Notes: generated from the sequence alone by a model not told the origin. A DNA stretch of 38,409 nt from Candidatus Neomarinimicrobiota bacterium (GCA_034716895.1 JAYEKW010000109.1:1-38409), one strand, 5' to 3'; shown: positions 2,977 through 32,796, counted from the stretch's first letter. Made by a program: numbers and translations.

Positions 2977-3581
2977 GATTCAGATCCTCCCTTGCTTGTC
3001 AGGATGGCTTTCATTTCAATAATGCGTTTGTTTAGGATGTCAGTGACTGCAATAGAAGAAATCGTTGCACCGGTAATGCCCTGAACTTCAAAATTTGTAC
3101 TGGGCTTGGCATTTTTTACAACCACAATTTCAGGATCAACATGAATTCCCTTAAATTGATCTGGAAACCAGTAAACATTTTGCTTATTAGAGGGATCAAC
3201 CACGATTTTGGTGCCCAAACCAGGTGTTTCGATTTGTTCCAGCACCTTGATACCAGTGAGTTGGTTTAGATCCGGGGTCAGACCAACCATGATACGGAGT
3301 TCACCCTGAAAACCACTGCCCACGGCCATAAAGGCAATTCCGACTGGCTGTTCGGAATCGTTTTTTGTGCCGATATAGATGGTTCCAGCATCAGTTTCCC
3401 GAGTTTCATAAAGGTCATGGGCTGGCAGGACTTCACCGATGGCCTTCTTCAAAGCTTGTTCACGATGGTAAGCCACTTTGGGCTTGGTGTACATATCCCA
3501 ACCGGCCAAAATACCACCTGACATCACTGTGATGAGGGTCAAAACCAGAATCATACGGGTAGATAATGATAGCTTGTTCAT
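2973..3581 (-). CDS. rnfG: Rnf complex subunit RnfG, covalent FMN carrier
   Basis: RnfG is an envelope-facing electron-transfer subunit with one N-terminal membrane helix (about residues 8-28) and an FMN-binding domain. The C-terminal GITGATISS segment (about 168-176) matches the motif whose threonine carries covalently bound FMN. The length of 202 residues is normal. It is coupled by four-base overlaps to rnfD upstream and rnfE downstream. Confidence 0.94.
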   Translation of the reverse strand: MNKLSLSTRMILVLTLITVMSGGILAGWDMYTKPKVAYHREQALKKAIGEVLPAHDLYETRETDAGTIYIGTKNDSEQPVGIAFMAVGSGFQGELRIMVGLTPDLNQLTGIKVLEQIETPGLGTKIVVDPSNKQNVYWFPDQFKGIHVDPEIVVVKNAKPSTNFEVQGITGATISSIAVTDILNKRIIEMKAILTSKGGSES

Positions 3582-4636
3582 GCGCGTATCTCCCCGAAAA
3601 ATTTTGGTCTGGTATAGCGATTTATCAGCGGTGTTAAGGCATTCAGTAAAAGAATTGAATACATCACCCCTTCTGGTAAACCACCAAAGAGACGAATGAT
3701 CACCAATAAAAAACCGGCTCCGGCACCAAAGATCCAGGCTCCCTTGGCAGTAACTGGTGAGGTTACCATATCAGTGGCCATAAAAAAGGCACCCAACATG
3801 AGACCACCGCTGAAAAGCTGGAAAACGGGAGTGGGATAAGTTTCCGGTGAGACCAGCCAAAAAACACCACTAACCAGGAATACAGAACCCAAAAAGCTTA
3901 AGGGAATGCGCCAGTCAGCGTATTTGCGTATCAGCAAATAAATTCCTCCAGCTAAAATGGCAATGGCTGAGGTCTCGCCAAGCGAACCGCTGATATTTCC
4001 AGTAAGCAAACCAGGCAATTCGCTGGTGATGGTTTCAAATTTAAACAGACCCAGAGGGGTGGCGGCGGTGATGCCATCGACCTCAGCATAACGAGCAGTG
4101 AGGGGCCAGGTCCAGGTGGTCATTGGAACCGGAAAACTGGCCTGGAGAAAGGCGCGACCCAACAGGGCTGGATTAAAGATGTTATACCCCAACCCACCAA
4201 AAACATGTTTTCCAATAATAATGGCGAAAACCGAGCCTAAAACAGCGCCGCCAATAGAGAAAGACGGGGGTAAGGTCAAGGCCAGTAATAAACCGGTAAT
4301 AGCTGCGGAGCCATCCGGGATGGTAAAAGCCTCTCCTTTGATCCGATTCACGATCATTTCTGAAACGACGGCCGCCAGAACACTGCTAAGGATGATTCCT
4401 GCTGCAGCCCACTGGAAATAGATCAAAGCCATTACAGTAGCCGGGATCAAAGCCAGAATGACATTCCACATGATCGTTGGAACGGTATCTTTAACATGGA
4501 AATGAGGTGAGGATGCCAAGATCAAGGGATGATCTGGTTTATACAATTTTGCTCTTGGATCCCTCTTTGGTTTAACTGGTTTCACGGGCTTTGGTGTTTC
4601 TTCGGGCTGAGATTGAGCAGGATTATTATCAGTCAT
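3578..4636 (-). CDS. rnfD: Rnf complex membrane subunit RnfD
   Basis: RnfD is a polytopic membrane subunit with covalently attached FMN. The chosen ATG at 4636 gives 352 residues and sits 4 bases after the rnfC stop. The reading frame is open further upstream, but only inside rnfC, so longer starts are unlikely. A charged Pro/Lys-rich N-terminal tail (residues 1-32) precedes the family-typical segment LILASSPHFHVKD. Several membrane helices follow. The GITAATPL segment corresponds to the flavinylation site of the family and keeps the threonine. The tail is longer than in many relatives and its role is unknown. Confidence 0.93.
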   Translation of the reverse strand: MTDNNPAQSQPEETPKPVKPVKPKRDPRAKLYKPDHPLILASSPHFHVKDTVPTIMWNVILALIPATVMALIYFQWAAAGIILSSVLAAVVSEMIVNRIKGEAFTIPDGSAAITGLLLALTLPPSFSIGGAVLGSVFAIIIGKHVFGGLGYNIFNPALLGRAFLQASFPVPMTTWTWPLTARYAEVDGITAATPLGLFKFETITSELPGLLTGNISGSLGETSAIAILAGGIYLLIRKYADWRIPLSFLGSVFLVSGVFWLVSPETYPTPVFQLFSGGLMLGAFFMATDMVTSPVTAKGAWIFGAGAGFLLVIIRLFGGLPEGVMYSILLLNALTPLINRYTRPKFFGEIRA

Positions 4637-4640
4637 AACA

Positions 4641-5996
4641 CTAGGCCTTGGCTTTGAGTTTATTTTGTTTTTCAGTGATCTTGACCTTACCCACCCGGAT
4701 CCACTGAACCAGTGGAATACCAGACGGACAGACAAAAGCACAGGAACCACATTCAATACAGTTAAACACCCCCCAATCTTTGCACTCATCATATTTGGCT
4801 GTTTCAGCCAGACGGGAAATACGAGTTGGAACCAGATTCATGGGGCAAACGGTAACACAGGAACCACATTGGATGCAGGGATAATGCCGAGTCTTTTTAA
4901 GTTGAGATGACTCGAGGCAGACAATACCAGAAGTAGCTTTCAGGGTTGGAACATTGAGATCATACTGAGCCAGACCCATCATGGGACCGCCCATAAACAC
5001 TTGCGCTGTTTCTCCTTTTAACCCGCCGCAGGCATCAACACAGACCTGAAAAGGGGTACCGATGCGGGCAATAATATTGCCTGGTTCTGTAATGGCATCT
5101 CCAGTGACTGTGAGCATGCGCTGAATCAGAGGCTTACCTTCTACAACGGCCTCATAGACAGCCAGAGCCGTGGCAATATTGTTTACAACGACACCGACAT
5201 CCATGGGCAAACCGCCATCCGGTACTTTGCGTCCCAGGGCAGCATCGATGAGCATTTTTTCAGCACCTTGAGGATATTTGACCTTTAAGGGCTGTACTTT
5301 GAAATTGAGGTTGAGCGCCTGAACACGCGCTTCCATAACAGCGATTGCATCGGCTTTGTTGGTCTCAATGCCAATAATCCCCTGTTTAATATCCAGGAGT
5401 TTCAGCATAATGGCCATACCCTTGAGGACCCGATCTGTTTCTTCAAGCATATTTCGATGATCGCAGGTCAGAAAGGGCTCACATTCGCAGCCGTTCAAAA
5501 TAAAGTGATCAACAGGCTTGTCTTTAGGTGGCGACATTTTGACGTGGGTTGGAAAAGCCGCACCACCCAAGCCAACGATACCAGCTTCGCGTACAATCTT
5601 TTGGAGCTCTTCAGGTGGAGTATTTTCCCAGTTTTCAGGAGTGGTAAGCAACTCCCAGTCATCCTCATCGCCATTTCGTTTAATATGGATCATGGGCACC
5701 TTGCCGCCCAGAGGGTGGGGGAATGAGCTGACAGCTACGACCTTACCAGTGATGGAAGCGTGGATGGGGCTGGAGACAAAGGCTGAAGTATCAGCAATTT
5801 TTTGACCTGTTTTGACCAAGTCACCTTTTTTAACCAGTGACTCACAGGGTGCGCCGATATGCTGTTGCAGGGGTATAAAGACTTCATCAGGCAGAGGCAG
5901 AACCCGGGAGGGGCTGGAGCAACTCATGTTTTTAAATTCGTCTGGATGAACTCCGCGACGAAAAGTGCTTAGATTCAATGTTCCAGAATTAGACAT
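4641..5996 (-). CDS. rnfC: Rnf complex subunit RnfC, NADH-binding iron-sulfur protein
   Basis: RnfC is the peripheral subunit that exchanges electrons with NAD(H). The protein has an N-terminal barrel-sandwich domain, a GLGGAAFPTHVK flavin/nucleotide-site segment resembling respiratory complex I NuoF, and an SLBB-like region. Two C-terminal 4Fe-4S motifs follow: CIQCGSCVTVCP and CIECGSCAFVCP. I chose the ATG at 5996 (451 residues). The frame extends to a TTG at 6017, but a GAGAGGA between the two favours the ATG. This is the first gene of the operon; about 290 bases separate it from the gene upstream, so its promoter should lie there. Confidence 0.95.
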   Translation of the reverse strand: MSNSGTLNLSTFRRGVHPDEFKNMSCSSPSRVLPLPDEVFIPLQQHIGAPCESLVKKGDLVKTGQKIADTSAFVSSPIHASITGKVVAVSSFPHPLGGKVPMIHIKRNGDEDDWELLTTPENWENTPPEELQKIVREAGIVGLGGAAFPTHVKMSPPKDKPVDHFILNGCECEPFLTCDHRNMLEETDRVLKGMAIMLKLLDIKQGIIGIETNKADAIAVMEARVQALNLNFKVQPLKVKYPQGAEKMLIDAALGRKVPDGGLPMDVGVVVNNIATALAVYEAVVEGKPLIQRMLTVTGDAITEPGNIIARIGTPFQVCVDACGGLKGETAQVFMGGPMMGLAQYDLNVPTLKATSGIVCLESSQLKKTRHYPCIQCGSCVTVCPMNLVPTRISRLAETAKYDECKDWGVFNCIECGSCAFVCPSGIPLVQWIRVGKVKITEKQNKLKAKA

Positions 5997-13763: not shown

Positions 13764-14693
13764 CTATTCGATAAAGTCGGCTTCAGCGAACTCCTCGATA
13801 CTAAATTCATTTGCTGGATCAGCATCCATCTGTAAGATGAATTCAACCACCTTCTTTTGTGCTGCCTCCACCTGCTTGCGAGAAACGGGTCCTTCTTTGG
13901 GTTCGTACATGGCCTGCTTTTTCTGAGGCAGGTTTTCCAAAATCCGGTCGCTTAATTCCTGGTCTTGCCCCTTTAAAGCCAGGGCAACATCATCCAGATC
14001 CAAGCTGTTAAAAATATCCCTAAGAACACTATCAGGAAGAACGGGTACATTATCAAAGGTGAAGTGGTGTTTTTTCACTTCCCTGGCTAGCTCGGGATCT
14101 TCCTGTGATAGATAATCAAGAAATTGTTTTTGCTCTTTTATTTCCATGGTGCCCAATAAGCCAGCCATGGCTTTACCGCCACCTTCTGAATACTCAGAGT
14201 GGGAGGGGATCTGCTTGGCTTTTTCACGGAACTCTGCAGCAACATCGAGTACTGCTTCCAGGGGAACGTCTTTGATCTTCCCCAGATCGATCATGGCTTC
14301 AGTCCGCACTTCTGTTGGCAGGCGCTGAAGGAGCCGTCTCTGCATTTCCAGGGGTACCTGAGCCAAAAGGATCGAGATTGAGCGGGTAGGCTCAGAGCGA
14401 GTAAGGTAGGCCAATTGAACCTCAGACATATTTTCAAGAAAAGCAAAGGGCTGTGATGTTGCTTCTTTTGATTCAGCAGCAAATTTTTTAGACATGAAAG
14501 AGAAATAGAACTCTTCAAGCACTTGCTTTTTTGCCTCAAAGGGTGTTTCTTTCACTTTTGAAGCATGTTGACGAACCGCTACGATTTCTTCATCATTTAG
14601 ATTTGGGAATAGTTGTCCAGCCAGACGAGCTCCCAAGATATCAAAGAGAATGGCCGCCTTATCAATTCCGGCCAATTTTATCTGATCAGCCAT
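13764..14693 (-). CDS. fliG: FliG-type rotor protein, full length, outside a flagellar locus
   Basis: FliG forms the rotor ring that the MotAB stator pushes in flagella. This 309-residue protein shows all three FliG domains. The N-domain (about 1-75) opens with DKAAILFDILGARLAGQLFP. The middle domain (about 85-165) has SEPTRSISILLAQVP where flagellar FliG has the EHPQ motif. A Gly-Gly-Gly linker lies at 171-173. The C-terminal torque domain (about 174-290) has a charged helix around R225 and D232/D234/D235 followed by ALALKG. The start overlaps the stop of the FliF-like gene by one base. It is the last gene of the operon. The switch partners FliM and FliN are absent, so the rotor may not reverse. 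Confidence 0.85.
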   Translation of the reverse strand: MADQIKLAGIDKAAILFDILGARLAGQLFPNLNDEEIVAVRQHASKVKETPFEAKKQVLEEFYFSFMSKKFAAESKEATSQPFAFLENMSEVQLAYLTRSEPTRSISILLAQVPLEMQRRLLQRLPTEVRTEAMIDLGKIKDVPLEAVLDVAAEFREKAKQIPSHSEYSEGGGKAMAGLLGTMEIKEQKQFLDYLSQEDPELAREVKKHHFTFDNVPVLPDSVLRDIFNSLDLDDVALALKGQDQELSDRILENLPQKKQAMYEPKEGPVSRKQVEAAQKKVVEFILQMDADPANEFSIEEFAEADFIE

Positions 14694-16576
14694 TATTTAC
14701 GTCCCTTCTTTTTCTTTTTTCCATTTTGCTCTTCCTCAGCCGTTTCACCATCTGTTTCTTCAACTTCGCCGGTATCCTTGAGCCACTCCTTAACAATACT
14801 GGAGGCAGAACCGGGTTTGCTCACAGCCAGCGACACAACGGATTTTTTAATACTGTCTACTTCTCCAACCAGTTCCTGATCCACTTCCGGTTCAGGAAGT
14901 TCGTCTTCTTCGACCTGATCTTCTGGCTCTTGAATTTCTTCAAGCTGATCGTCAGCCGTTTCCGGAGCAGGAGGTAGATCTTGTGGTGAACGACGACGGC
15001 CTCCCATCATGGCACCGATAAGAATAGCCAGAGCCACTAGAACGGCAGCGCCGATGATCATCAGAGGCAATAAATTTTCATTATCTTCAGGAATGATGGT
15101 GGCTTGAAGTCTTTGGTTCTCCAGATCTTCCATCTGCTGCTTAAGTTTGTCTTCTCGTTCCCGGATTGCTGTTTTTTCAGCTTCCCTGCGTTTTTGTTCA
15201 AGTTCGAGCTTTAAGCGTTGTTCTTCTTCAAGATCTACAGCAGACAGCTGATTCTTAAGGTCATCTAATTGCTCAGTGAGCAAAGCCAGGCGTAATGAAT
15301 CCTGACGGAGACGATCTTTGGCTTGCTCTTGTTGGGATTCAAATAGTTGGCGTCGTTCTTCAGCTAATCGCTCTTGCTCTTGCTGACGCAGGTCGCTTAA
15401 TTCTTTTTCACGCTGGCGAATCCGATCTGATTCATCCTGGCGGATCCGGGCCAATTCGGTTTCATGTTCTTTCTGTTTTGCTAATTCTTGTTGCCTCAGG
15501 CGAGCCATTTCAGCATTCTGGGCATCCTGGTTAACCTGCTCTTGTCTTATGCGCTCCTGTTGAGCTTCAAGGTCCTTGATCCGTTGATTCTCAGATTCTT
15601 CTTTTTGCCGGGCTTCAATGGCTGCCATCTTTTCAGCAATAGATTTCAACAGCAATTGTTCAACATCAGGCTTGTCAGCAATGGTTCCTTGAAAATTGGC
15701 AGTCATCACTTGCAGTTTATCGCCGCGTTCACGATTAAAATGGGAAGCAACCATGGCTACTGTACGTATATTTTCAATGATCTTTGGAGAAATTGGATCT
15801 TCCAGGATCACGGTCAATTCCATTTTATTTACTCTTAAAGAGGGACCTGTTGTGCTGGCAACCGTATGACGAGAAAGACTGGGAGATGTAGGGTTGGCAT
15901 AATCAACCAGATTTCCCTCATTACTCGCAATGGCAACGGGCTCAATATTTTCTTCAAGGATCACTTCCTCTTCAGCTAGAGACAAACTGGCTTCTGCGGC
16001 TACCGTTGAACTTGTGGTATCTTCAATAATGGCGACCTCAGCGAGATCTTCATCCGCTGCATAGATCACCCCATCATAGGCATCTTCTTCAACCAGGATT
16101 TCTTCTTCATAAAGTTCAAATCCGGGAGACTGAATTCCGGGAAAACCGGGAATGTCTGATGGAACAGTTGATTTAATAGGACGTTTTTTTAGAACGGTTT
16201 TGGTCTTTTGCTTACCAGGAGCAATTTTTTCTTTACTTCCCAGGGGTGGGAGACCAGGTGTTTTACTGCGAACGGATTGAGTATATATTTCTTGCTCTGG
16301 AGAGATCGTTCCTTTGATGCCGGGAGTTTCATAAATAGTTGTATATTGTTGAGTTGGTGTGGTTTCCATGACCACGTTGACATTCACAATGAAGTTCTCA
16401 TGACGTAAAATACGATAGACGGCATCACTAACCCGCTGTTGTATGGTGTTTTCCAACAGGATCTTTTGTGAAAGGACCTCTTTATTCGTGTCCGGAAAGG
16501 CAAGCACCTGCGAGATCAACACTAATGTGGTGACTACGATTCCTGTCATGATGTGTTTAAATGCCGGATACTTCAT
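14693..16576 (-). CDS. FliF-like ring protein with long coiled-coil stalk and FliG-binding-like tail
   Basis: This 627-residue protein resembles the C-terminal part of flagellar MS-ring protein FliF. An N-terminal signal or anchor (about 8-26) precedes split RBM3-like segments: IQQRVSDAVYRIL..VNVNVVME (45-71) and KMELTVILEDPISPKIIENIRTV..FNRERGDKLQVMTANF (251-295). Between them lies an acidic, low-complexity insert. A coiled coil rich in Gln/Glu/Arg (about 310-490), a transmembrane helix (about 502-524) and an acidic tail follow. The tail's SASSIVKEWLKD (590-601) resembles the helix by which FliF binds FliG. RBM1 and RBM2 are missing. The ATG has GAGGAG six bases upstream. I infer an inner-membrane ring carrying FliG. 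FliF homology is remote, from motif reading only. Confidence 0.7.
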   Translation of the reverse strand: MKYPAFKHIMTGIVVTTLVLISQVLAFPDTNKEVLSQKILLENTIQQRVSDAVYRILRHENFIVNVNVVMETTPTQQYTTIYETPGIKGTISPEQEIYTQSVRSKTPGLPPLGSKEKIAPGKQKTKTVLKKRPIKSTVPSDIPGFPGIQSPGFELYEEEILVEEDAYDGVIYAADEDLAEVAIIEDTTSSTVAAEASLSLAEEEVILEENIEPVAIASNEGNLVDYANPTSPSLSRHTVASTTGPSLRVNKMELTVILEDPISPKIIENIRTVAMVASHFNRERGDKLQVMTANFQGTIADKPDVEQLLLKSIAEKMAAIEARQKEESENQRIKDLEAQQERIRQEQVNQDAQNAEMARLRQQELAKQKEHETELARIRQDESDRIRQREKELSDLRQQEQERLAEERRQLFESQQEQAKDRLRQDSLRLALLTEQLDDLKNQLSAVDLEEEQRLKLELEQKRREAEKTAIREREDKLKQQMEDLENQRLQATIIPEDNENLLPLMIIGAAVLVALAILIGAMMGGRRRSPQDLPPAPETADDQLEEIQEPEDQVEEDELPEPEVDQELVGEVDSIKKSVVSLAVSKPGSASSIVKEWLKDTGEVEETDGETAEEEQNGKKKKKGRK

Positions 16577-16608
16577 AAGCTTCTCCTCGTTTCCAACGTC
16601 AGTTCAAG

Positions 16609-17253
16609 CTAACCGATCGTTAGAAATGTTATATCAACGCGTCTATTTTTTGCGCGATTTTCAACAGAATCATTTGCAACTTTTGGTGCTGTATCTCCAA
16701 ATCCGATAGCTCTGAATTTATCGCTTGGGATACCTTGTGATGTAAGATAGCGAATCACAGCAGCAGCTCGAGCTGATGACAATTCCCAATTTGATGGAAA
16801 AGTAGCTGAGCGAATAGGTACATTGTCTGTGTGTCCTTCCACGGCAATGGCATAAGTTGCTTTATCCATGGTGGTCACCAATTTCACCAAAAAGGCTTTA
16901 ATTGGTTGCGAAAGAGCAGCGTTACCGATATTGAAAGCCAGGTCACTGGCAATTTCCAGAGTAACGCCACGGGCATCCATACGAACCTTGACCTGTTGCT
17001 GTAATTTTTGGTCTCTAACCAGTTTTTTTACTTCCATATTGATCTGACTCAAGGAAACCTTTTTTGATTTCTTGCGGGCGCCCTGGTGTTCTCCCAGAGA
17101 TTGACCAAATTGTTCCAGTTTGACCGGATCCAGGGTGGACATGGCAAAGAGCAACACAAAGAAGGTCATGAGCAGAGTCATCATATCCGCGTAGGTGGTG
17201 AGCCAACCGCCGGTGTCGTCGCTTTTAGGCGCTTTTTTTGCCGTTACAGCCAC
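16609..17253 (-). CDS. motB: MotB-type stator subunit with peptidoglycan-binding OmpA domain
   Basis: MotB anchors the ion-driven stator to the cell wall. The 214-residue protein has a short cytoplasmic N-terminus and one transmembrane helix, TTYADMMTLLMTFFVLLFAM. Its D23 is the ion-carrying aspartate. A periplasmic linker and an OmpA-like domain follow (about 95-214, with VEGHTDNVP and ENRAKNRRVDI). It is shorter than most flagellar MotB, mainly in the linker. The start codon is GTG at 17253 with GAGGA about 9 bases upstream. It follows motA by five bases, as expected for a stator pair. Confidence 0.93.
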   Translation of the reverse strand: MAVTAKKAPKSDDTGGWLTTYADMMTLLMTFFVLLFAMSTLDPVKLEQFGQSLGEHQGARKKSKKVSLSQINMEVKKLVRDQKLQQQVKVRMDARGVTLEIASDLAFNIGNAALSQPIKAFLVKLVTTMDKATYAIAVEGHTDNVPIRSATFPSNWELSSARAAAVIRYLTSQGIPSDKFRAIGFGDTAPKVANDSVENRAKNRRVDITFLTIG

Positions 17254-17258
17254 GCTGA

Positions 17259-18065
17259 CTAATCCTCGTAAACCCTGTCACGTGGTGCTAAATAAGAGTT
17301 GAGAAATTCTCGTACCAGAATGGGGTGTTTCCGAACTTTCAACATAATGACACCGTCAATGATCATGTTCTGCGTAATATTTCGCTTGTCGATCCTGGAG
17401 CGTAGTTTGGCAGCTATCGGTAGAAAAAACAAGTTGGCGAATAATGCCCCATAAAAGGTTGTAATCAGAGCAATTCCCATGGATTGACCCAGCTTGGCTG
17501 CCGGATCAATGTCACCACCACCATCACCAGGTGCAGCACCCATGGCAAAGAGCATGGCGACCAGTCCAACCAGGGTTCCCACCATACCAAAGGCAGGGGA
17601 AAGGGTTCCCATGGTTTTAAAAACGTTGGCTTCTGCATCTTCACGAAGTTCACGGTTTATGATCCTGGTTTCCATAATACTACGAATGTCATCCTCTGGT
17701 AGACCATCTACGATCAATTGGACGCCATCCTTTAAAAAGAAATTACTGACTCCTGGAACCGCTTTTTCCAGATCGGATGTTCCCTTTCGGGCAACACCGG
17801 CCAACTCAACGAGTTCTTTCAGCGTATCAGCATCATTATGATTGTCACCCTTGAAGACAGCCCATAGGTTTGTATATAAGGATAAAACCTCTTTTACAGG
17901 GAAAGCCATCGCTGTTGCTGCTATGGTTCCACCTAAAACGATCATGAGAGACTGGACATCCACAAAGGTCATCACGCCATTAGGTAATGTTAAAGACACA
18001 CCGTAGACAGCATAACCGATCAAGCCTGAGCCGAACAATAGTCCTATAATGGTTGCAAAATCCAT
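17259..18065 (-). CDS. motA: MotA/PomA-type stator ion-channel subunit
   Basis: MotA is the four-helix stator subunit that couples ion flow to rotor movement. The 268-residue protein has TM1 (3-25), TM2 (38-56), TM3 (155-176) and TM4 (196-216). It keeps the torque-loop charges R93 and E100 (VARKGTSDLEK) and the prolines P157 and P216. T164 in GMVGTLVGLV and T202/T203 in ITTFYG match positions that are threonine in sodium-type PomA and alanine in many proton-type MotA. This points to Na+ use, as an inference. An AAGGA precedes the ATG by 7 bases. The match to flagellar-type MotA is closer than to ExbB/TolQ. Confidence 0.93.
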   Translation of the reverse strand: MDFATIIGLLFGSGLIGYAVYGVSLTLPNGVMTFVDVQSLMIVLGGTIAATAMAFPVKEVLSLYTNLWAVFKGDNHNDADTLKELVELAGVARKGTSDLEKAVPGVSNFFLKDGVQLIVDGLPEDDIRSIMETRIINRELREDAEANVFKTMGTLSPAFGMVGTLVGLVAMLFAMGAAPGDGGGDIDPAAKLGQSMGIALITTFYGALFANLFFLPIAAKLRSRIDKRNITQNMIIDGVIMLKVRKHPILVREFLNSYLAPRDRVYED

Positions 18066-18084
18066 ACGTCAGTCCTTTGCTTCT

Positions 18085-19452
18085 TTATTCCCTTGCCGAG
18101 ACAGCCGAACGCAATCGGTTCTCATTTAAAGCGCGCAGAATGTTGCGTACTTCATCATATCCGGGGTCGATCTGCAGGGCAATATTCCAATTGATAGTCG
18201 CTCGATCGATCTGATTTAATTTGTAGTAAATTGAACCTCGCCGGGCGTAGGCCAGAGCCAAATTCGGGTTGTATTCAAGCGCTTCATTGATCTCAACAAG
18301 CGCATCTTCAAATTCTTCGTTGTAGAACAGTCTTAATGAACGGGACAAATGTTTCAAAGCTTGATTGACCTGGGCATCAGAGACGTGACGAGCCAATTGC
18401 AGCGAGGCAACTGAGTCTTCCAGAACTTTGTTCCGTTGCTCCAACTGTTCCACCATACGGTTTAAGTGCTCAATTTCAGTTGAAGACATTCTTAAGGAAT
18501 CTCTCAAGACCAGAAGCTGACGTTCCTGGGCTTTATGCCAGCTGGAATCGATGACCGTACGTAGTGGTAAACCTTCTTCAGTGACAACACCGGAGATCTT
18601 GATACCTCCCCGTTGTTTGCTGGTTGATGACTTGACCCGGGGCAGGAAATAATCCAGACCAATACCTATACCTGGAGGGTTCTCACGATCTTCACCCAAA
18701 TAGGGTAAATTCTGTATATTGGAAAAACCGATATTTATGTGGTATTCCTGGGTTAGGGGAAGTTTAACACCAGCATTAATCCCAACGCCGTCCCACTCCA
18801 GAATAAAGTCCAGACCACCTCTATCAGCCATGATATTCGTGTTCAATAACAAACCTAAAAAGAAACCAATATTATTGGTTTTGGCCACCATCACAGTATC
18901 ACCAGGTGTACTGGTGGTATCCATGCTGAATTTACCAAAATTTGAACCATAGCGACCGGAGCCGACACCCAGGTAAGTTTTCAGGCTATAATCTGAAAAG
19001 CTATTTTCACGACTTAACAAGATATAGTAGGATAGGTTGCGAACCCGGTCTTCCAAATTGGTCGAATCCGAACTGCCCGTAGTAAAGCTGATATCGTTAA
19101 CGCCAATTCCTACAGCAGTTTCGCCATAGGTCAGAAGCCGATCTTGAACATGCAGTGCCAATTCAGCCTGATTGCTATTTGAACCGGCCTGGATGGCAGA
19201 CAAGCCAATGCGAAAATCTCTGGTAACATCAGTCTCTAGAAAGGCACCTTTGTTCCAGAACTCAGTTTCAAAAGCTCCTCTTGTAGATTGTCCGGCAACT
19301 CCGATGCGCAGAAGGTAAGGTTCGTTATACAGGCTTGAAGTAGGTATGTGCATCATGGGGCCCGGTCGGGAGTAATTCAAGGATGTCTGACCATTCACAA
19401 ATAGTGCGCTGGTTATAATAATCAGGGTCAAAAGTATTTTGAGTGTTTTCAT
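18085..19452 (-). CDS. Outer-membrane barrel-like protein with coiled-coil and TPR tail
   Basis: This 455-residue protein starts with a signal peptide (about 1-21, cleaving near VNG/Q). Residues about 22-290 alternate like beta-barrel strands and are rich in Gly, Asn and Tyr, for example LKTYLGVGSGRYGSNFG and INAGVKLPLTQEYHINIG. A coiled coil (about 305-355, LEQRNKVLEDSVASL) and two or three TPR units (about 365-445, LAYARRGSIYYKLNQIDRA) follow. I infer an outer-membrane barrel whose C-terminal arm reaches into the periplasm. No named family is recognised. It lies 19 bases upstream of motA and has GGAG 8 bases before its ATG. Confidence 0.7.
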   Translation of the reverse strand: MKTLKILLTLIIITSALFVNGQTSLNYSRPGPMMHIPTSSLYNEPYLLRIGVAGQSTRGAFETEFWNKGAFLETDVTRDFRIGLSAIQAGSNSNQAELALHVQDRLLTYGETAVGIGVNDISFTTGSSDSTNLEDRVRNLSYYILLSRENSFSDYSLKTYLGVGSGRYGSNFGKFSMDTTSTPGDTVMVAKTNNIGFFLGLLLNTNIMADRGGLDFILEWDGVGINAGVKLPLTQEYHINIGFSNIQNLPYLGEDRENPPGIGIGLDYFLPRVKSSTSKQRGGIKISGVVTEEGLPLRTVIDSSWHKAQERQLLVLRDSLRMSSTEIEHLNRMVEQLEQRNKVLEDSVASLQLARHVSDAQVNQALKHLSRSLRLFYNEEFEDALVEINEALEYNPNLALAYARRGSIYYKLNQIDRATINWNIALQIDPGYDEVRNILRALNENRLRSAVSARE

Positions 19453-19486
19453 CTAATGATCTCCGGGATCAGCCTTTCATCTCGCA

Positions 19487-20356
19487 TCATTCCTGTACAA
19501 ACCGTTTTGCCAGGGTTAGGTATTCACTTCCAGGATGACGGGAAACCAATTCCTGAAAAGCCAGTTTGGCTTCAGGAAGGCGATCCTTGTTCTTAAAAGC
19601 CAGGCCGATCATGACCAGGGCATCGTCCAGTTTATCTGAATACTCAAAACGTTGTACTTGTTCCAGGGCGCTAATAGCTTCGTCATAGAGACCTTTTTCA
19701 AAATAACAACGTCCCACCCAATACTGAGCATTAGCTCGCAGGGTGATATCACTACCACGTCGTACAATTGTGTTAAATTCATCAACAGCCTGATAATAAA
19801 ATTGTTGATGAAATTTGGTTAGACCTCTCCGGTAGGTGGCCTGTTCTTCAGCAATAGTTAGTTTAGGTCCCATTGGAGAGTGCTGCATAGGTCGTACGAT
19901 CACATCCACATCTTTCCAGGGTGTATCGAGTTCTGCATAAACGCGATCAGACATTTGGGAGTTACCAGGTACAAAACCGGGTTGTTGAATAGCTTTAATT
20001 TGTTGATCCACCAGGCTGGTGATACGATCTGAAAGCAATGCTTGATCGGTTTCACCGGCTGCTTTGATCATCGTGATCTCGGTCTGAAGACTGTCAATGA
20101 CCCTGGTTTGAAAGCGCAGTCGAATTTCAGTTTCAGCTAATTTTTGTTGATATCGGTTCAGCTCTTCTTCCAGAACCTGTTGTTCGAAGGGGGTTTCCGG
20201 TGTGTCACTATAGATTTGCAAAGTATCGTTTGAAAATTTACTGGTGTCCTCGATCATTAAACCAATATCGTACAGGAGATTTCCACCGGTTTGTCCTAGA
20301 AGTGGGCTGGCGACGATAATCGTCAAAATAATGATAGTGGTTCCAGTGCGCATCAT
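19487..20356 (-). CDS. Exported coiled-coil and TPR protein (CpoB/YbgF-like layout)
   Basis: The chosen ATG at 20356 gives 289 residues with a signal peptide (about 1-21, ending LLGQ). The frame is open upstream, but only through the end of the previous gene. A coiled coil (about 50-95) precedes three TPR units (about 165-285) with motifs such as NAQYWVGRCYFEKGLYDEAISALEQV. This resembles CpoB/YbgF-type periplasmic proteins. Its C-terminal half closely parallels that of the lipoprotein encoded just upstream (NAQYWIGECFYSLEDFESAI), so the two are probably paralogues. The gap to the upstream gene is 10 bases. Confidence 0.75.
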   Translation of the reverse strand: MMRTGTTIIILTIIVASPLLGQTGGNLLYDIGLMIEDTSKFSNDTLQIYSDTPETPFEQQVLEEELNRYQQKLAETEIRLRFQTRVIDSLQTEITMIKAAGETDQALLSDRITSLVDQQIKAIQQPGFVPGNSQMSDRVYAELDTPWKDVDVIVRPMQHSPMGPKLTIAEEQATYRRGLTKFHQQFYYQAVDEFNTIVRRGSDITLRANAQYWVGRCYFEKGLYDEAISALEQVQRFEYSDKLDDALVMIGLAFKNKDRLPEAKLAFQELVSRHPGSEYLTLAKRFVQE

Positions 20357-20366
20357 GAGTTTAGAC

Positions 20367-21332
20367 TTATTGTTTCCCCTGTAAAAAATCGTGGGCTTGA
20401 GTGACCAATTCACTTTCAGGATAATCAAGAATGAACTGGTTCATGTTTTCCCGGGCTTTCAGATACCGTCCTAACTGTTGATAGCTGATAGCAATTTTGA
20501 ATAAAGCATGGTCACTTTTATTGTTCTCGGGAAAGGCAAAGACCTTTTTAAATTCGTTAATGGCGGATTCAAAATCTTCCAATGAATAGAAGCATTCTCC
20601 AATCCAATATTGGGCATTATCGGCATAGGCTCCATAGGGTTCACGTTCAATAACTACCCGGAAATCCTGAATGGATTCAAGGTATTCATTATTGAAATAT
20701 CTGTTCAGAGCATCGTTGTAAGCCATGCGATAATCGGCATTGAATGTATAACCACGGGCAGGAGGCTGGGTTGGCATTGAAGGTTCTTCATTAATGACAG
20801 GTGCCGCGACAGCCACGGGTGTATCCATTTCAAGAACAGACTTGACAGGTGACTTCACAGGCTCAGGCTCCGGTTCAGGTTGATCCAACCTTGCTTCTGT
20901 GTGGGTTTGAACCGCGAGTTGCTCGATCTGTACTTCCAGAGAATCATTCAGGACTTCCAGATTTTTCATGCCTTCTTTAAGGGAATCGATTTCTCTGATA
21001 AGAACATAAATATTACCACGCAAATTGATGATATCGGGATCACGTGGTGTTGCCACAACTTCGATAATAGGTTCTTCGGCTTTTTTATCCAGTTTCGTTT
21101 GATAAAAGACAACCTGGGAATCCATAACAGCAATAGTGTTTTTCAGCTGTTCAATTTCCATGCGGGATTCACGCAATTTGACCACTTCTGCAGCCAAGGC
21201 TTTCATCTGGGACTGCAATTTCAATTGCTCGATATTGCGAGGTGGCGTAGCAGGCTTTTTGGGGGTACAAGCCACAAGTCCCATCAGGGCTATCAAGCCA
21301 AGTGTTAATAGAAAGGTCTGTTTAGATGTCAT
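20367..21332 (-). CDS. Coiled-coil and TPR lipoprotein
   Basis: The ATG at 21332 (321 residues) starts a lipoprotein signal with lipobox LVAC (C22) and has GGAAG close upstream. Longer in-frame starts lie inside the upstream gene and are unlikely. Two coiled-coil stretches (about 35-75 and 105-145) are followed by a Pro/Glu-rich linker (about 155-195). Three TPR units end the protein (about 205-318). It overlaps its upstream neighbour by 11 bases. It probably sits in the outer-membrane inner leaflet and projects TPRs into the periplasm. A scaffold role in the motor complex is inferred from context. Confidence 0.75.
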   Translation of the reverse strand: MTSKQTFLLTLGLIALMGLVACTPKKPATPPRNIEQLKLQSQMKALAAEVVKLRESRMEIEQLKNTIAVMDSQVVFYQTKLDKKAEEPIIEVVATPRDPDIINLRGNIYVLIREIDSLKEGMKNLEVLNDSLEVQIEQLAVQTHTEARLDQPEPEPEPVKSPVKSVLEMDTPVAVAAPVINEEPSMPTQPPARGYTFNADYRMAYNDALNRYFNNEYLESIQDFRVVIEREPYGAYADNAQYWIGECFYSLEDFESAINEFKKVFAFPENNKSDHALFKIAISYQQLGRYLKARENMNQFILDYPESELVTQAHDFLQGKQ

Positions 21333-22317
21333 GTTCTTCCCAGTCGATGGAATAACTATAGCCAATAAATGAACCAAAAGATTTTGGTACATAGAGTTCA
21401 AATTCGCCACTGGCACCGGGGAAAAGAGAAGTGTCAGTATTAACGCCACTAGAAAAAACGTGGTGGGATCCTTTAACAAAAGCGGTCAATTCGCGAGTGT
21501 CACCACTCCAATTGATCCTGAAGAGAAAATTTACCTTTACAAAATCAGCCCGTCTGCCGCCTATGTTTTTAACAATCCCGGAGAGAATGGTATTGCCGCT
21601 GCGATCTTTACGCTCCCTGATGCTACCGGAAAGAACCACATTGCCAGTATATTTGCTTTCTCTCGTGTCGCCTTTAACATCCTGTGTACCTGCCATGGAA
21701 GACTGGTTATTATTAATGTTCATGGGTGCACCACCGCGACGTGAACCGGGCTCAGTAACCGCAGGTGCACCGGGTTCGGTGGGAATGTTGTCAACAATAC
21801 GAACAACCTGATCACGGGAAACGGTAAGGACGCCGATGAGGGTCTTAACTTGAATATTTTCTTTGTCCTGATCGATTACATCACCAAACAATTTGGTGCC
21901 GTTCTCTAAATGAACCTCTTTACTATATATACTTAAAGGATTGGTCCAAACTTCACTCTGGGTCTGGATCTCGGTCAGTTTCTTTTTAACATACTTTAGT
22001 TCTGCAGCGAGGCGTTTGACCTCATAATTGATCTCGCCAGTGACAAAATCAGTAGAGGCACCTTGTTCAGGTTGGTTCTTTTTAAGTTGATCCAGATTAT
22101 AGATCAGGTTGTCAGCTTGCTCGCCACTTTGCCAGGCTGATTCATCCGTTGAATTGGCATCTACACCAGCAACTTCAGCACGATCTTTTACCTCGGCGTT
22201 TTTTTCTGATTTATCCCAGGATTCTTCCTCAGGTGCTGACTTGCCACCGAACATTGAACACTGTACAAATATCAGGGTTAGCGCCAATAACAGAACTTGT
22301 AAGCTGTATCGCTTCAT
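21322..22317 (-). CDS. Probable lipoprotein with a small beta domain and an FxLYD-like C-terminal domain
   Basis: This is the first gene of the motor operon. The ATG at 22317 (331 residues) has AGAGG six bases upstream. The signal sequence ends in FVQC (C20). Gln before the Cys is atypical for a lipobox, so lipidation is uncertain. An acidic linker and a short coiled coil (about 95-120) follow. Next is a compact beta motif, VHLENGTKLFGDVIDQ..VLTVSRDQVVRIVD (about 135-176). The C-terminal domain (about 226-329) has TILSGIVKNIGGRRADFVKV, typical of FxLYD/immunoglobulin-like envelope domains. Function is unknown; context suggests an envelope component of the motor assembly. Confidence 0.7.
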   Translation of the reverse strand: MKRYSLQVLLLALTLIFVQCSMFGGKSAPEEESWDKSEKNAEVKDRAEVAGVDANSTDESAWQSGEQADNLIYNLDQLKKNQPEQGASTDFVTGEINYEVKRLAAELKYVKKKLTEIQTQSEVWTNPLSIYSKEVHLENGTKLFGDVIDQDKENIQVKTLIGVLTVSRDQVVRIVDNIPTEPGAPAVTEPGSRRGGAPMNINNNQSSMAGTQDVKGDTRESKYTGNVVLSGSIRERKDRSGNTILSGIVKNIGGRRADFVKVNFLFRINWSGDTRELTAFVKGSHHVFSSGVNTDTSLFPGASGEFELYVPKSFGSFIGYSYSIDWEEHDI

Positions 22318-22393
22318 ACGCAGCCTCTTCCGACTTAACATCGCTTCCAGTTTTTGTGCGGTAGTGTATCTGTCCTGCACCGCATTCGTGTAG

Positions 22394-22422
22394 AATTTAG
22401 AGGTGTCTTAAAATCTTGTCAA
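22394..22422 (-). promoter_or_regulatory. Sigma70-like promoter of the motor operon
   Basis: On the minus strand, TTGACA (22417-22422) is followed after exactly 17 bases by TAAATT (22394-22399). This predicts a transcript start near 22387 and a leader of about 70 bases before the first gene of the FliG/MotAB operon. The -35 is a perfect consensus and the -10 matches four of six positions. Confidence 0.6.
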
Positions 22423-24709: not shown

Positions 24710-25207
24710 CTACGCCCAGACAATTTTTTCTAGATTTTCTTTGATCCATTTTTCAATATCTACTATTAGCCAGGCAGTAATACGATAACCGCGATGCTTT
24801 AGAGCAATAGCCTCCCAGACACCTCCAGTGACAAAGGTCCAGGGTTCTTGAAAATTTTCAAGCTGCGGGTCTGCCCCCCAAACAACAATGACACCCTTGC
24901 TATCTGAGACATCATAAACGGAGGACATGTCAGGAAATCTAGCTCCCTGTTCGAGATCAGCAGGTCCGATCAAAGGATTATCCATTGAAAGATTGATGTG
25001 GTCCTTTACGTTCTCATTTTGCGTTTGAGGGTCAGGCGATCGATACAAGAGTATAACCTGATGCCCAGGTTGCTTATCAAGCGACTTGATCTGCGCTCGA
25101 CAAGTGGCGATGTCTGCAGCAAATGGTCGAACCACAGCTTTAGGAAAAGCTGGTTTCAGAATGCTGACAAAATCGGGAGCACAGAAGATCAGGGGCAAAT
25201 GATTCAT
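24710..25207 (-). CDS. Shortened purine-nucleoside-phosphorylase-like protein
   Basis: The 165-residue protein matches only the C-terminal half of trimeric purine nucleoside phosphorylases (~270-290 residues). Recognisable are DHINLSMDNPLIGP (69-82) and RFPDMSSVYD (90-99). A later segment, GGVWEAIALKHRGYRITAWLIVD (128-150), parallels the STVPEV..HxGLxVLGxSxITN region. The N-terminal phosphate-binding part is absent. The positions of the catalytic Glu and Asn appear replaced (QLEN and LIVD), so ordinary phosphorylase activity is unlikely. The start overlaps the DivIVA-like stop by ATGA, so the gene is translated in the operon. It may be a repurposed or decaying protein. Confidence 0.65.
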   Translation of the reverse strand: MNHLPLIFCAPDFVSILKPAFPKAVVRPFAADIATCRAQIKSLDKQPGHQVILLYRSPDPQTQNENVKDHINLSMDNPLIGPADLEQGARFPDMSSVYDVSDSKGVIVVWGADPQLENFQEPWTFVTGGVWEAIALKHRGYRITAWLIVDIEKWIKENLEKIVWA

Positions 25208-25812
25208 TTATCGGTAAAGTCAGGAGTTATGTTGTTGTCGATTTCAGGATCAGAAGTTTCAACAGGCAGGTCTTTAACGGCCAGATCGGTCTTGGAAAAA
25301 TCAATGATACGCTCATCCTGCAAACTGATATTTTCGGGCATCAGATCAATTACATCATTGGTTTCTGAAAACGCTTCCTCCAGCAGTTCAAGGTTTGAAC
25401 GTAAAGTGCTCTTTAGTTTGATCAGTATGGCATCTCGTTTGGCAAGAAGTCTTTGAATGTCATGCTGAACGCCAGCCAGGTTTTCTTTTGCAGTGAACAG
25501 TAAAGCATCTTTCTCAGTGTTGGCCTTTCGTAGAATGGTATCGGCCTCATTATGGGCGTTACGAATAGTATCCTGCCCTGTTTTTTGAGACAAGAGGAGC
25601 GTTTCCTTCAGGCTGTCTTCTACGTTCATATAGGTTTTCAGAGCCAGGCGGATCTCTTTGTTCTCAATGTGGATCTCATTGGATTCACGAACCAAAACTT
25701 CCAATTCTTCAGCAATCTCACCTAATAGCTCATTAACCTGATCGCGATTATACCCTAAAGCAGACTGCTTAAAGTTATGTTCCCTGATATCCTGAGGTGT
25801 TAATCGTCCCAT
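25204..25812 (-). CDS. DivIVA-domain coiled-coil protein
   Basis: The 202-residue protein starts with LTPQDIREHNFKQSALGYNRDQVNELLGEI, the DivIVA/GpsB membrane-binding motif in which a division or polarity protein senses membrane curvature. A coiled coil follows (about 30-150) and the C-terminal tail is acidic. GGGGAG lies six bases before the ATG. It sits between yggS and the purine-nucleoside-phosphorylase-like gene. The exact cellular role in this Gram-negative lineage is unknown. Confidence 0.85.
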   Translation of the reverse strand: MGRLTPQDIREHNFKQSALGYNRDQVNELLGEIAEELEVLVRESNEIHIENKEIRLALKTYMNVEDSLKETLLLSQKTGQDTIRNAHNEADTILRKANTEKDALLFTAKENLAGVQHDIQRLLAKRDAILIKLKSTLRSNLELLEEAFSETNDVIDLMPENISLQDERIIDFSKTDLAVKDLPVETSDPEIDNNITPDFTDK

Positions 25813-26659: not shown

Positions 26660-29182
26660 TTATGCTTCCGGTAGTGTTTTTTCCTCACCATCAAACAGTT
26701 TTTCTTGTTCACCATCGACCGCATCACCACCATCTTCGTTTTTAACTTCTGGATCTTTTTCTTCCTGAACTCGAGTGACAGCAGCAATGGAATCTGCTTC
26801 ATCCAGTCGGATCAGCTTGACACCCTGGGTGTTACGACCAATACTGCGGATGGACGAAACGGGTTGCCGGATAAGGACACCGCGAGTGGTAATAATCATC
26901 AGGTCATCGTTGTCCACAACTTCTAATAAAGATACCATATGGCCAACCTTTGGTGTGGTCTTGATGGTGATTATGCCCTTGCCGGCCCGATTCTGAACTC
27001 GATAATTGATTACTTCTGTTCGTTTACCATAGCCATGTTCGGAAACAGCCAGGACCGTTCCCTCACGACGAACGACTATCATGCCCACAACATGGTCATT
27101 GTCACCTTTCAGTTCAATCCCTTTGACACCCATTGTCTTGCGACCGGTTGCGCGAATATTGGTCTCGCTGAAACGAATGGACATACCATTATGGGTTCCT
27201 AAAATGATGTCATTCTCACCATTAGTGATCTGAGCATCAATCAGATAATCATCTTCCCTGATATCAATGGCAAAGATACCACCTTTCATTGGACGGCTAT
27301 AAGCAGTCAGAGCCGTTTTTTTAACCAAACCCTTGGAAGTTGCCATTGTGATAAAAAGGTCATCGGCATAATCTCTGACAGCAATGTAAGCCTGGACACT
27401 TTCACCCTGGTCTACGCGCAGCAGATTGATCAAAGCGCGACCACGGGTTGCTTTGCCAGCTTGTGGAATCTCATGAACCCGCAGCCAGTGGCATTTTCCA
27501 CGATCTGTGAAGAATAAGATGTAGTCATGGGTAGATGCTGTGAAGAGGTGTTCAATAAAATCCTCATCACGGGCTTTAGCTCCGGCTGAACCACGACCCC
27601 CCCGATTTTGACGACGATAACCACTCACAGGATAACGCTTGATAAAACCGGCGTGGGTTATGGTGATTACCATCTCTTCTTCGGCGATCATGTCTTCAAT
27701 AGTGAAGTCTTTGGCATCCGGAATGATCTCAGTCCGACGCTCATCACCATAACGATCCTGCACTTCGCGCAGCTCAGTTTTGATGATATTCATTCGCATC
27801 CCGACATTATTGAGGATCTCATTCAAGCGAGCGATCACTTTCAGAATTTCGGTGTATTCATCGATGATCTTTTGCCGTTCCAGGCCGGTGAGTTTCTGTA
27901 AGCGCATGTCCAGGATAGCTTGAGACTGAATTTCACTCAGACTGAATTTACTCATCAAGGCTGCCTTGGCCTCCTTGGGGTTTTTTGATCCCCGGATAGT
28001 TTTGATAATAGCATCCAAATTATCCAGGGCAATTTTCAGACCCTCTAAAATATGAGCTCTGGATTCAGCTTCATTGAGTTCATACTGAGTCCGCTTAACC
28101 ACAACCTCATGGCGGAACTTGATAAATTCGTCGATTACTTCCTTCAGAGTCAATACTTTTGGCAGGCCGTTCACCAGCGCCAGCATGATGACTCCGAAGG
28201 TCTCCTGCATCTGGGTATGCTTATAGAGTAGATTAAGAACCACTTCAGGCACAACATCACGCTTGAGTTCGATCACCAGGCGGATACCATCCTTATCTGA
28301 TTCATCACGAATATCAGAAATACCTTCGACTTTTTTGGTGCGAACCAGCAGGACGATCTTTTCGATGAGAGAGGTCTTATTGACCTGGTAGGGAATTTCC
28401 GTAATAACGAGACTAAAACGGCCATTTTTGCGTTCTTCAATATTGGCTCGTGCGCGAACCGTGATCTTTCCCCGTCCAGTTTCGTAAGCTTCCTTGATAC
28501 CAGCGGCACCATAAATGATTGCAGCAGTCGGGAAATCAGGACCCTTGATGTGCCCCATCAGTTCAGATATAGTGACCTCAGGATTGTCGATTTGAGTCAC
28601 AATGGCATCCACCACTTCGTTCATGTTATGTGGAGGAATATTGGTGGCCATTCCAACAGCAATACCACTTGATCCATTAAGAAGCAGGTTAGGAATGACA
28701 GCAGCCAGAACCGTGGGCTCTTTCAGACTTTCATCAAAATTGGGAATAAATCTGACGGTGTCCTTTTCCAGATCCTTGAGCATCTCACTGGAGATACGCT
28801 TTAAGCGGGCTTCCGTGTAACGCATGGCCGCGGCATTGTCACCATCGATGGATCCAAAGTTTCCCTGGCCATCCACCAGGGGATAGCGCAATGAAAATTC
28901 CTGGGTCATACGCACCATGGAATCATACACAGCAGAATCACCATGAGGGTGGTACTTACCCATCACGTCTCCAACGATACGCGCACTTTTACGATAGGCT
29001 CGGTTATACCCGACTCCCAATTCCATCATTCCATAGAGAATGCGACGGTGAACCGGTTTTAAGCCATCCCGTACATCGGGCAGGGCTCGTGATACAATGA
29101 CCGACATGGAATAATCCATATAGGATTTTTTCATTTCCTCTTCGATCGATGTGTCCTGTATGCTTTGTCTCTGAATCTCCAA
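26660..29182 (-). CDS. gyrA: DNA gyrase subunit A
   Basis: GyrA cuts and rejoins DNA during negative supercoiling. The 840-residue protein has the winged-helix region with [17 protein letters not shown] and the catalytic tyrosine in [10 protein letters not shown] (about 121). The C-terminal beta-pinwheel has a GyrA box, QNRGGRG, which favours gyrase over topoisomerase IV. In the quinolone-determining region the Ser and Asp equivalent to S83 and D87 of E. coli are present. The start is a TTG at 29182, supported by GAGG seven bases upstream; no ATG fits better. Confidence 0.97.
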
Positions 29183-29243
29183 CTCAATACCTCTTTATTT
29201 CTATCTTATACAATTTTTCAATTTCCACACATGTACGCTATCC

Positions 29244-29295
29244 CGAGTACTTTGCTTCTCGATGGAGCCTGTGCTGAGCAAGGCCGAAGTACTCG
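29244..29295. repeat. Inverted repeat in the gyrB-gyrA gap
   Basis: Bases 29244-29254 (cgagtactttg) and 29285-29295 (cgaagtactcg) form an 11-base inverted repeat with one mismatch. The loop reads, on the minus strand, cttgctcagcacagg. The whole resembles a dispersed FCB-type intergenic element with a TTCG...GCTCAG core. It is transcribed between gyrB and gyrA and might affect their relative expression. Confidence 0.6.
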
Positions 29296-29330
29296 AGGTG
29301 ACGAAAAGGAACAGGTAACGTCCCTGGATA

Positions 29331-31541
<2,211 letters not shown>

Positions 31542-31549
<8 letters not shown>

Positions 31550-32660
31550 TGCTCTGAATCTTTCCAGCATCGATAACCAACAGGGTGTCACCTTCGATCT
31601 CCAAACCGTGGTTACGGAGATCAGCCAGGTCAGTAGCTGTTATAAATATTTGATGGTCACCCCTGAGGCTTTCAACGATCATCGTACTCCGCTTCACATC
31701 CAGTTCAGCAAAAAGATCGTCCAGAAGGAAAACAGGGGGCTCATTTAAAAAACGCTCGAGGAATTGACCCTCGGCAAACTTAGCCGCCACTAAAACCAAT
31801 TTATGTTCTCCCTGGGAGCCGAATTTTCGCAGATCCTTGGTGTTGAGAAAAAAGGTGAAGATATCCCGGTGTGGTCCACGCGTTGTCGTGCCCTTGCGCA
31901 GATCTTCTGCCAGAGAATCCTGAAAAGCCTGGCGATAGAGAGCTTCCGGTTCTCCTGACGTAATGCGAACATTCGAGATAAAGGCCATTTTCAATGAATT
32001 CTCCTGCTCTAGCTGCAGATAGGATTCATAAAGTAGCTTTTTAAATTCAGTGATATGTTTGGTGCGGGATGTGTGAAGCAGTGCCGAAATACTGGCTCGC
32101 TGATCATCTAGAGAGGACATGAGAATCCGGTCTATGAGGGTGCCATCATTGGCATAAGCTTGCAGCATGGCATTGCGTTGTTTCAGGATTCGGGCATAGG
32201 TCTGCAGATTTTCCAGATAGGCTGGATCTACCTGTGAAAGCAATTTATTAAAAAAGAGACGACGGATCTCAGGTGATCCAAAAGTTAACTCGCCATCCTC
32301 GGGAGTCAGGGAAACCAGAGGAAATTTGCCAATGATCTCTGCCCTGCTCTTCAGATTGTTGTTATTAACACTGACACTTTTTTTACGCGCAGATTTCACT
32401 TTTAGACGGACATTGTGTTCAGTACCAAGATGATCTGAGAAAAGACCCTTTAGTTGATAGCCTACTTGACCATGACGAGCAAGGTCGGCATCCAGACGGG
32501 TCTTAAAACTACGGGTGTAGGCTAAACTGTGAATGGCTTCTAGAATAGTGGTTTTCCCGGCACCGTTTTCGCCATACAGAATGTTGGTATATTGCCCAAA
32601 ATCCATGCTGACCTGTTCGTATTTACGGAAATCAAGCATGGTAAGTGATTTAATCAACAT
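31542..32660 (-). CDS. recF: DNA replication and repair protein RecF
   Basis: RecF is an SMC-like ATPase that helps load RecA at gaps. The 372-residue protein starts MLIKSLTMLDFRKYEQV and has Walker A GENGAGKTT (about 30-38). The central region contains SPEIRRLFFNKLLSQVDP. Near the C-terminus it has SQGEHKLVLVAAKFAEG (signature-like) and Walker B PVFLLDDLFAELD. The length and all motifs are normal. It lies between dnaN and the DUF721 gene. Confidence 0.97.
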
Positions 32661-32796
32661 GCCTGAGAATTGTAAAAGTTATTCGTGTCAATCATACCTG
32701 ATCTATTCAATATGTTATCTAAGCCAAGAAGCCTGGCGTATAGTTAATTTTTAGCACTGTAGAATCAGTTGTGCGACCGACTGTCCTGCAAAGACG

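Follow-up and report, generated by a model that had tools for sequence, protein, structure and literature searches.

We describe here a tightly packed gene cluster in a stretch of 38,409 nucleotides from Candidatus Neomarinimicrobiota bacterium (GCA_034716895.1 JAYEKW010000109.1:1-38409), hereafter the window, which is an entire contig of a 3.45-Mb draft genome (G000). The cluster is a minus-strand unit of eight genes (13764-22317), transcribed in the order lipoprotein, two tetratricopeptide repeat (TPR)/coiled-coil envelope proteins, outer-membrane barrel with TPR, MotA, MotB, a FliF-like protein and FliG. The original prediction, made from the sequence of the window, had proposed an operon of these eight genes in this order, separated by overlaps or gaps of at most 34 bases. 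Both points are borne out with the starts of genes 1-3 refined to methionines at 22317, 21332 and 20353 that fit a lipoprotein or a signal peptide: genes 1 and 2 overlap by 11 bases, genes 7 and 8 by 1 base, and the five junctions between them have, in gene order, gaps of 13, 34, 19, 5 and 32 bases. Its central idea, a flagellar-type rotor and stator joined by an operon to envelope and outer-membrane proteins, is supported as well, with the gene order found phylum-wide and mostly in genomes without FlhA or FliM. In the direction of transcription, the features are:

22394..22422, minus strand: promoter-like site 5' of the operon, TTGACA-17-TAAATT (10/12, consensus match only)
21322..22317, minus strand: gene 1, predicted lipoprotein (331 aa with the refined start, MKRYSLQ; lipobox ..LIFVQC)
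20367..21332, minus strand: gene 2, predicted lipoprotein with a coiled coil and a C-terminal YbgF/CpoB-like TPR region (LVAC lipobox, TPR match)
19487..20353, minus strand: gene 3, predicted secreted coiled-coil protein with YbgF-like TPR (domain matches, refined start)
18085..19452, minus strand: gene 4, predicted outer-membrane beta-barrel of ~12 strands, followed by a coiled coil and periplasmic TPR (AlphaFold2, Foldseek)
17259..18065, minus strand: gene 5, MotA/PomA-type stator subunit (family profiles; conserved R93, E100, P157 and P216)
16609..17253, minus strand: gene 6, MotB/PomB-type stator subunit (conserved membrane Asp23 and peptidoglycan-binding OmpA domain)
14693..16576, minus strand: gene 7, reduced FliF (Pfam, PDB profile search, AlphaFold2, Foldseek, profile-profile comparison)
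13764..14693, minus strand: gene 8, three-domain FliG (N, M and C) with a replaced EHPQ motif and a modified torque helix (Pfam, alignment, tree)

Judged by its sequence, the stator is of the flagellar type (MotAB/PomAB). Pfam assigns gene 5 to MotA_ExbB and gene 6 to MotB_plug and OmpA, and family profile comparisons group both proteins with flagellar stators (PomA, MotP, MotD and the like) rather than with TolQR/ExbBD; for MotA the scores are 176 bits against PomA vs 16 bits against TolQ. Arg93, Glu100, Pro157 and Pro216 of MotA are conserved (48 MotA rows in the alignment), as is the membrane Asp23 of MotB (60 MotB rows). The window also carries, at 595-4792, genes for Rnf/Nqr-type subunits (Rnf-Nqr twice, NQR2_RnfD_RnfE, FMN_bind and an iron-sulfur protein). 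Because these subunits are encoded here, a sodium gradient is possible, and an Rnf/Nqr pump for sodium or protons could set the ion used by the stator.

The FliG_N, FliG_M and FliG_C domains of gene 8 all lie above the Pfam cut-offs, which bears out its description as a full-length FliG, and a FliG profile search matched FliG structures with E-values of up to 6e-43. All 39 operon FliG sequences compared match TIGR00207, the protein of the window falling below the equivalog cut-off (128.8 vs 226.7). We mapped residue positions in these sequences onto E. coli numbering; the residues in contact between MotA and FliG are described in PMC7564593 and PMC12505986. In 39 of 39 sequences the FliM-binding EHPQ motif is reduced to its first Glu, which fits the absence of FliM, and the position of E. 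coli Arg281 is occupied by Lys or Arg in the same 39. The acidic pair 288/289 is retained in about a quarter of them and displaced in the rest, including the window's protein. A tree of 66 FliG sequences, unrooted and with long branches, so that age relative to the flagellum is beyond its resolution, places the operon proteins in one clade (100/100), with the phylum's flagellar FliG on the other side together with those of Thermotoga, Aquifex and Helicobacter; the tree broadly follows families.

The FliF-like protein required more sensitive methods. Pfam recognised only the end of YscJ_FliF_C, just below the cut-off (E=1.8e-4), and a hhalign comparison of the FliF-like alignment with one single FliF sequence was uninformative (probability 3). 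A profile of 54 orthologues searched against PDB matched FliF chains over RBM3 (E=3e-6) and also aligned the 26 C-terminal residues of FliF to the C-tail of the FliF-like protein, in which a Trp is invariant (54/54). Profile-profile comparison with the phylum's flagellar FliF aligned both regions (RBM3 E=9.5e-5, tail E=0.002, both E-values being those of this one comparison). The AlphaFold2 model (mean predicted local distance difference test score, pLDDT, 67, mostly 80-93 in the RBM halves) contains a helix at residues 29-57, strands at 62-83 and 233-259, a helix at 264-277, a strand at 287-293, a long helix at 317-492, a membrane-type helix at 502-525 and tail helices at 567-601; with this model as query, the best 17 Foldseek matches in PDB are all FliF, with probability 1.00. 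The predicted architecture is thus an RBM3 domain split by a variable insert (29-293), a coiled-coil stalk (317-492), one transmembrane helix (502-525) and a cytoplasmic tail (567-601) with a FliFc-type FliG-binding motif. RBM1 and RBM2 are absent, and no match to PF01514 was obtained, unlike for the flagellar FliF of the same genome. The N-terminal hydrophobic stretch resembles a cleaved signal peptide; its cleavage would leave one membrane anchor, with the ring raised off the membrane by the stalk. As modelled, therefore, gene 7 encodes a reduced FliF, in which RBM3, the S-ring domain, is carried on a coiled-coil stalk of variable length and followed by a single membrane helix and a FliG-binding tail: the FliF-like label given to it stands, and the protein is not a whole FliF. 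Between RBM3 and the membrane helix the orthologues have from 43 to 208 residues, and the nearly stalkless version in family f3 (L035, L036) constitutes a natural test of the role of the stalk.

Among the envelope proteins, gene 4 yielded an AlphaFold2 model with a pLDDT of 77.6, whose best Foldseek matches are FapF, NanC and designed barrels of 12 strands, with TPR proteins matched separately. TPR is found by Pfam in three of the operon proteins. Genes 2 and 3 match YbgF/CpoB-type TPR families with E-values of ~1e-18 to 1e-20, below the family cut-offs, and gene 2 matches TIGR02795 with E=8e-20, also below its cut-off. The FxLYD label given earlier to gene 1 has no matching support in Pfam or NCBIfam; the protein shows a weak match to the LA_0442/LA_0875 N-terminal domain, and its orthologues in other families are ~39-50% identical. 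Its longest open reading frame starts at a GTG (22380). Position 22422, previously taken as the end of the operon, is no coding start; it is the first base of the promoter-like site.

Analysis of the phylogenetic distribution revealed the same gene order in all 15 relatives whose loci were fetched, representing 11 families, with one TPR gene fewer in one member or a split barrel frame in places; most of the operon proteins are ~35-50% identical in those relatives that lie outside the order of the window. A scan of 84,980 species added 80 further loci with the same order, as far as each contig extends. Conservation in related genomes had been put forward as a check, with scattered genes counting against the idea, and the order proves to be kept throughout the phylum. 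Where the hosts are named, they are Candidatus Neomarinimicrobiota/Marinimicrobia (SAR406), now Fidelibacterota, and a few records carry only "bacterium" or "FCB group". The core consists of the lipoprotein, the barrel, MotA, MotB, the FliF-like protein and FliG; between 0 and 2 TPR genes are recognised per locus, genes 2 and 3 being missing in some lineages. In several families (L026, L027, L030, L031) a gene of baeRF family 10 (archaeo-eukaryotic release-factor-like) lies directly before the lipoprotein gene; it was not found there in the window's lineage.

Scoring the operon by strong matches to its barrel and the flagellum by FlhA in the same 120 genomes of the phylum, we found 82 genomes with the barrel and 28 with FlhA, of which 21 have both; 61 have the operon alone, 7 have FlhA alone and 31 have neither. 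In the 77 high-quality genomes the corresponding numbers are 15, 42, 3 and 17. These absence calls rest on draft genomes, the 42 operon-only ones being at least 90% complete and one of them (G036) a single contig. Among the 42, G034 carries a flagellar FliG together with a fragment of FliM, so the lack of FlhA there may be a gap in the assembly; 41 remain if this genome is set aside. FliM is present in 27 of the 120, nearly the same set as FlhA, and FliG_C matches occur in 90. In a wider draw of 392 genomes the barrel was detected in 164 members of the phylum and in one genome outside it (G325), where the locus (L155) retains the lipoprotein and the barrel at a contig end. G325 looks like a near relative rather than the recipient of a distant transfer, because it shares a nad/pan gene neighbourhood (gene names read from the sequence) with the Fidelibacterota genome G213 (L156), and its placement outside the phylum may need re-examination.

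The original prediction had also stated that filament, hook and export genes are lacking. This holds for the window, where protein family profiles detected no export gate, rod, hook or filament gene inside or outside the operon, but not for the genome, since contig C16 of G000 (L003, L004, L178) carries a canonical flagellar cluster. It comprises genes similar to FlgB, FlgC, FliE, FliF, FliG, FliH, FliI, FliJ, FlgD, FlgE, MotA and MotB, as well as FliM, FliN, FliP, FliR, FlhB, FlhA, FlhF and FlhG, and, further along the contig, FlgF, FlgG, FlgA, FlgH, FlgI, FlgK, FlgL and FliW; some of these identities come from profile matches and the rest were read from sequence and order only. Response-regulator-like genes precede this cluster and nucleotide-sugar-type genes follow it. 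A flagellar set elsewhere in the genome had been named as grounds for abandoning the idea, and in the letter such a set exists. It does not refute a separate system, because the operon FliG proteins form their own clade (100/100) and 61 of the 82 operon-bearing genomes lack FlhA. The cluster on C16 does lend something to the view that the operon is a flagellar remnant, or a spare stator and rotor set for the genome's own flagellum; against it stand the same FlhA-less majority, reading frames and residues that are intact across the phylum, the distinctness of the operon FliG clade from the phylum's flagellar FliG, and the missing RBM1 and RBM2, which leave no MS-ring of the flagellar kind. We regard a remnant or spare set as very improbable. 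The operon is a separate, conserved system apart from the flagellum.

We consider it rather probable that this operon encodes a second, non-flagellar, ion-driven rotor-stator machine of Fidelibacterota, acting on the periplasm and the outer membrane. MotAB, anchored to peptidoglycan by MotB, would admit H+ or Na+ and push a ring of FliG. FliG would turn the FliF-derived ring through its conserved cytoplasmic tail, and the ring, raised by the stalk, would act by way of the TPR/coiled-coil proteins on the barrel and the outer-membrane lipoproteins, passing force to them. Ion-driven turning of FliG, and with it rotation of the ring, is suggested by the homology of MotAB and FliG to the flagellar motor; for force transfer from ring to barrel we rely on the order of the genes. 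Since the operon lacks an export gate, rod, hook and filament as well as FliM and FliN, the output would stay in the envelope, and reversal by the CheY/FliM route probably does not occur in the motor of the operon, which has no FliM/FliN switch. As to its job, we tentatively prefer mechanical work on the outer membrane, such as moving, opening or ordering an assembly, to swimming or other locomotion. Several points weigh against this interpretation. Formation of the ring, the contacts among FliG, FliF and MotA, and coupling to the outer membrane are all things we infer from homology and gene order. For the FliF-like model the overall pLDDT reaches only 67. In the torque helix of the window's lineage the acidic pair is displaced, with P265 at the position of D288 and E264 one residue earlier. 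Finally, the stalk is nearly absent in family f3, with 43 residues between RBM3 and the membrane, which makes it non-essential to the design.

Evidence bearing on the output comes from Fidelibacter multiformis IA91T, the only cultured strain we found for the phylum, which is described as non-motile and as unable to make its own peptidoglycan, and whose complete genome measures 2.79 Mbp at 45.6% GC (PMC11652737). Genome G036 (single contig, 2,788,509 bp, 45.0% GC in a 400-kb sample) is probably this strain; it carries all eight operon genes (L027), and a profile search of it gave no match to FlhA or FliM. Gliding or other surface motility like that of Myxococcus Agl-Glt or Bacteroidota Gld, in which the outer-membrane parts would carry or move adhesins, is thereby weakened, with the reservation that non-motility was reported for culture conditions. 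The parts list is alike in outline (stator, TPR, outer-membrane barrel, lipoproteins), SprA is nearly universal in the phylum, so that adhesin export is conceivable, and the operon occurs in many FlhA-less genomes; yet homology to Glt or Gld proteins does not extend beyond TPR (the GltC match is marginal, in a TPR stretch, with E=0.0065, far below the cut-off) and no adhesin was recognised among the neighbouring genes tested. Gliding, to which the operon had originally been likened, is thus unsupported as an output, and we hold it to be doubtful, if worth serious consideration. An association with type IV pili, considered on account of downstream gene sizes (L031, L033, L034), was rejected, the genes in L031 being those for a TPR protein, GcpE, a lipid A acyltransferase, Sua5 and an ABC transporter.

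Two further proposals would give the operon a task in the envelope. It could maintain the envelope like Tol-Pal, tying the two membranes and the peptidoglycan together in growth or division by pulling rather than spinning: its two TPR proteins resemble YbgF/CpoB (below cut-off), the OmpA domain of its MotB is Pal-type, only ~4 of 120 genomes give a full-length TolB-like match, and the FliG tree broadly tracks families. We nevertheless find this unlikely, given a MotA of PomA/MotA type and not TolQ (176 vs 16 bits), a ring domain and a FliG that have no counterpart in Tol-Pal, and an operon marker that about a third of the genomes lack. Strict replacement is contradicted by G030 and G039, which have both a TolB-like protein and the operon, and replacement of Tol-Pal was rejected as a candidate, the TolB model matching mostly generic propellers apart from those ~4 genomes. 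Alternatively, the motor could energise a type IX secretion system (T9SS) in place of GldL/GldM. SprA was detected in 116 of 120 genomes and in 77 of 77 of high quality, and in the 120 genomes GldL was nowhere over the cut-off and GldM gave no match, negatives that were obtained without a positive control. SprA is equally present in genomes lacking the operon, and its near-universality gives no correlation between the two, for which reason T9SS coupling was set aside; nor did we find any connection by sequence between the operon and T9SS proteins. An energiser of T9SS seems to us decidedly improbable.

Returning to the rotor-stator machine, the families of its parts are known, and as far as we have checked their combination, their partners and their phylum-wide conservation apart from flagella are new. 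We found no description of such a gene set in the open literature, subscription papers and preprints lying outside that coverage. Rotor proteins in species without motility have been raised as a question, which was left unanswered (PMC12199754). That the operon represents an undescribed rotary class is, in our estimation, evenly balanced: this would be a MotAB-driven FliG/FliF-ring rotor without a secretion apparatus and with an outer-membrane output, inherited mostly vertically since early Fidelibacterota, whose FliG is farther from the phylum's flagellar FliG than the latter is from those of the other phyla in the tree. If true, the rotor-stator module of the flagellum can live as an independent engine, and the present operon is a phylum-wide candidate for one, with rotor and stator in one transcription unit, new envelope partners and usually no flagellum. 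It bears on the assembly of the flagellum from modules, on whether torque can reach the outer membrane where no rod exists, and on the biology of SAR406, a phylum of ocean and subsurface bacteria that is widespread in the ocean and has hardly been brought into culture. It is testable, because the cultured strain probably carries the operon.

The surroundings of the operon in the window are of the housekeeping kind, with uracil phosphoribosyltransferase and LptD on one side and NUDIX, a methyltransferase, SSB, DivIVA, gyrase, RecF and DnaN on the other. The latter side includes an origin-type cluster at 26660-36991 (gyrA, gyrB, dciA, recF, dnaN, then priA) and a DivIVA-family protein at 25204-25812 (E=3e-27), here in a diderm genome of the FCB group. 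A search of the window against Rfam returned no family at the gathering score.

Comparison with known systems places the operon closest in parts to the machines discussed above. To our knowledge, Agl-Glt has no FliG or FliF ring and Gld systems have no FliG/FliF rotor. Like the operon, GldLM/T9SS of Bacteroidota is an ion-driven inner-membrane motor working on outer-membrane assemblies in an FCB-group phylum, with SprA present here too; the difference is that the profile search, run without a positive control, returned no GldL or GldM match. In Myxococcus Agl-Glt, too, an ion-driven stator is coupled to proteins of the periplasm and the outer membrane (PMC9389320), but the stators of that machine belong to a generic ExbB/TolQ-like clade (PMC12505986) and the operon contains no Glt homologue beyond TPR. 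Tol-Pal with YbgF/CpoB shares an inner-membrane ion channel, a peptidoglycan-binding domain, YbgF-like TPR and anchoring at the outer membrane, whereas the operon has MotAB instead of TolQR, has no TolA, TolB or Pal, and adds a ring and FliG. With the bacterial flagellar motor it has in common a MotA/PomA-type stator with the ion-binding Asp and a peptidoglycan-binding domain, the N, M and C domains of FliG, and RBM3 and the FliG-binding FliFc tail of FliF. It differs from that motor in lacking an export gate, rod, hook, filament, FliM and FliN, in a FliF without RBM1/RBM2 and the first membrane helix, in a FliG that has lost the EHPQ motif, and in the addition of outer-membrane barrel, TPR and lipoprotein partners, found mostly in FlhA-less genomes.

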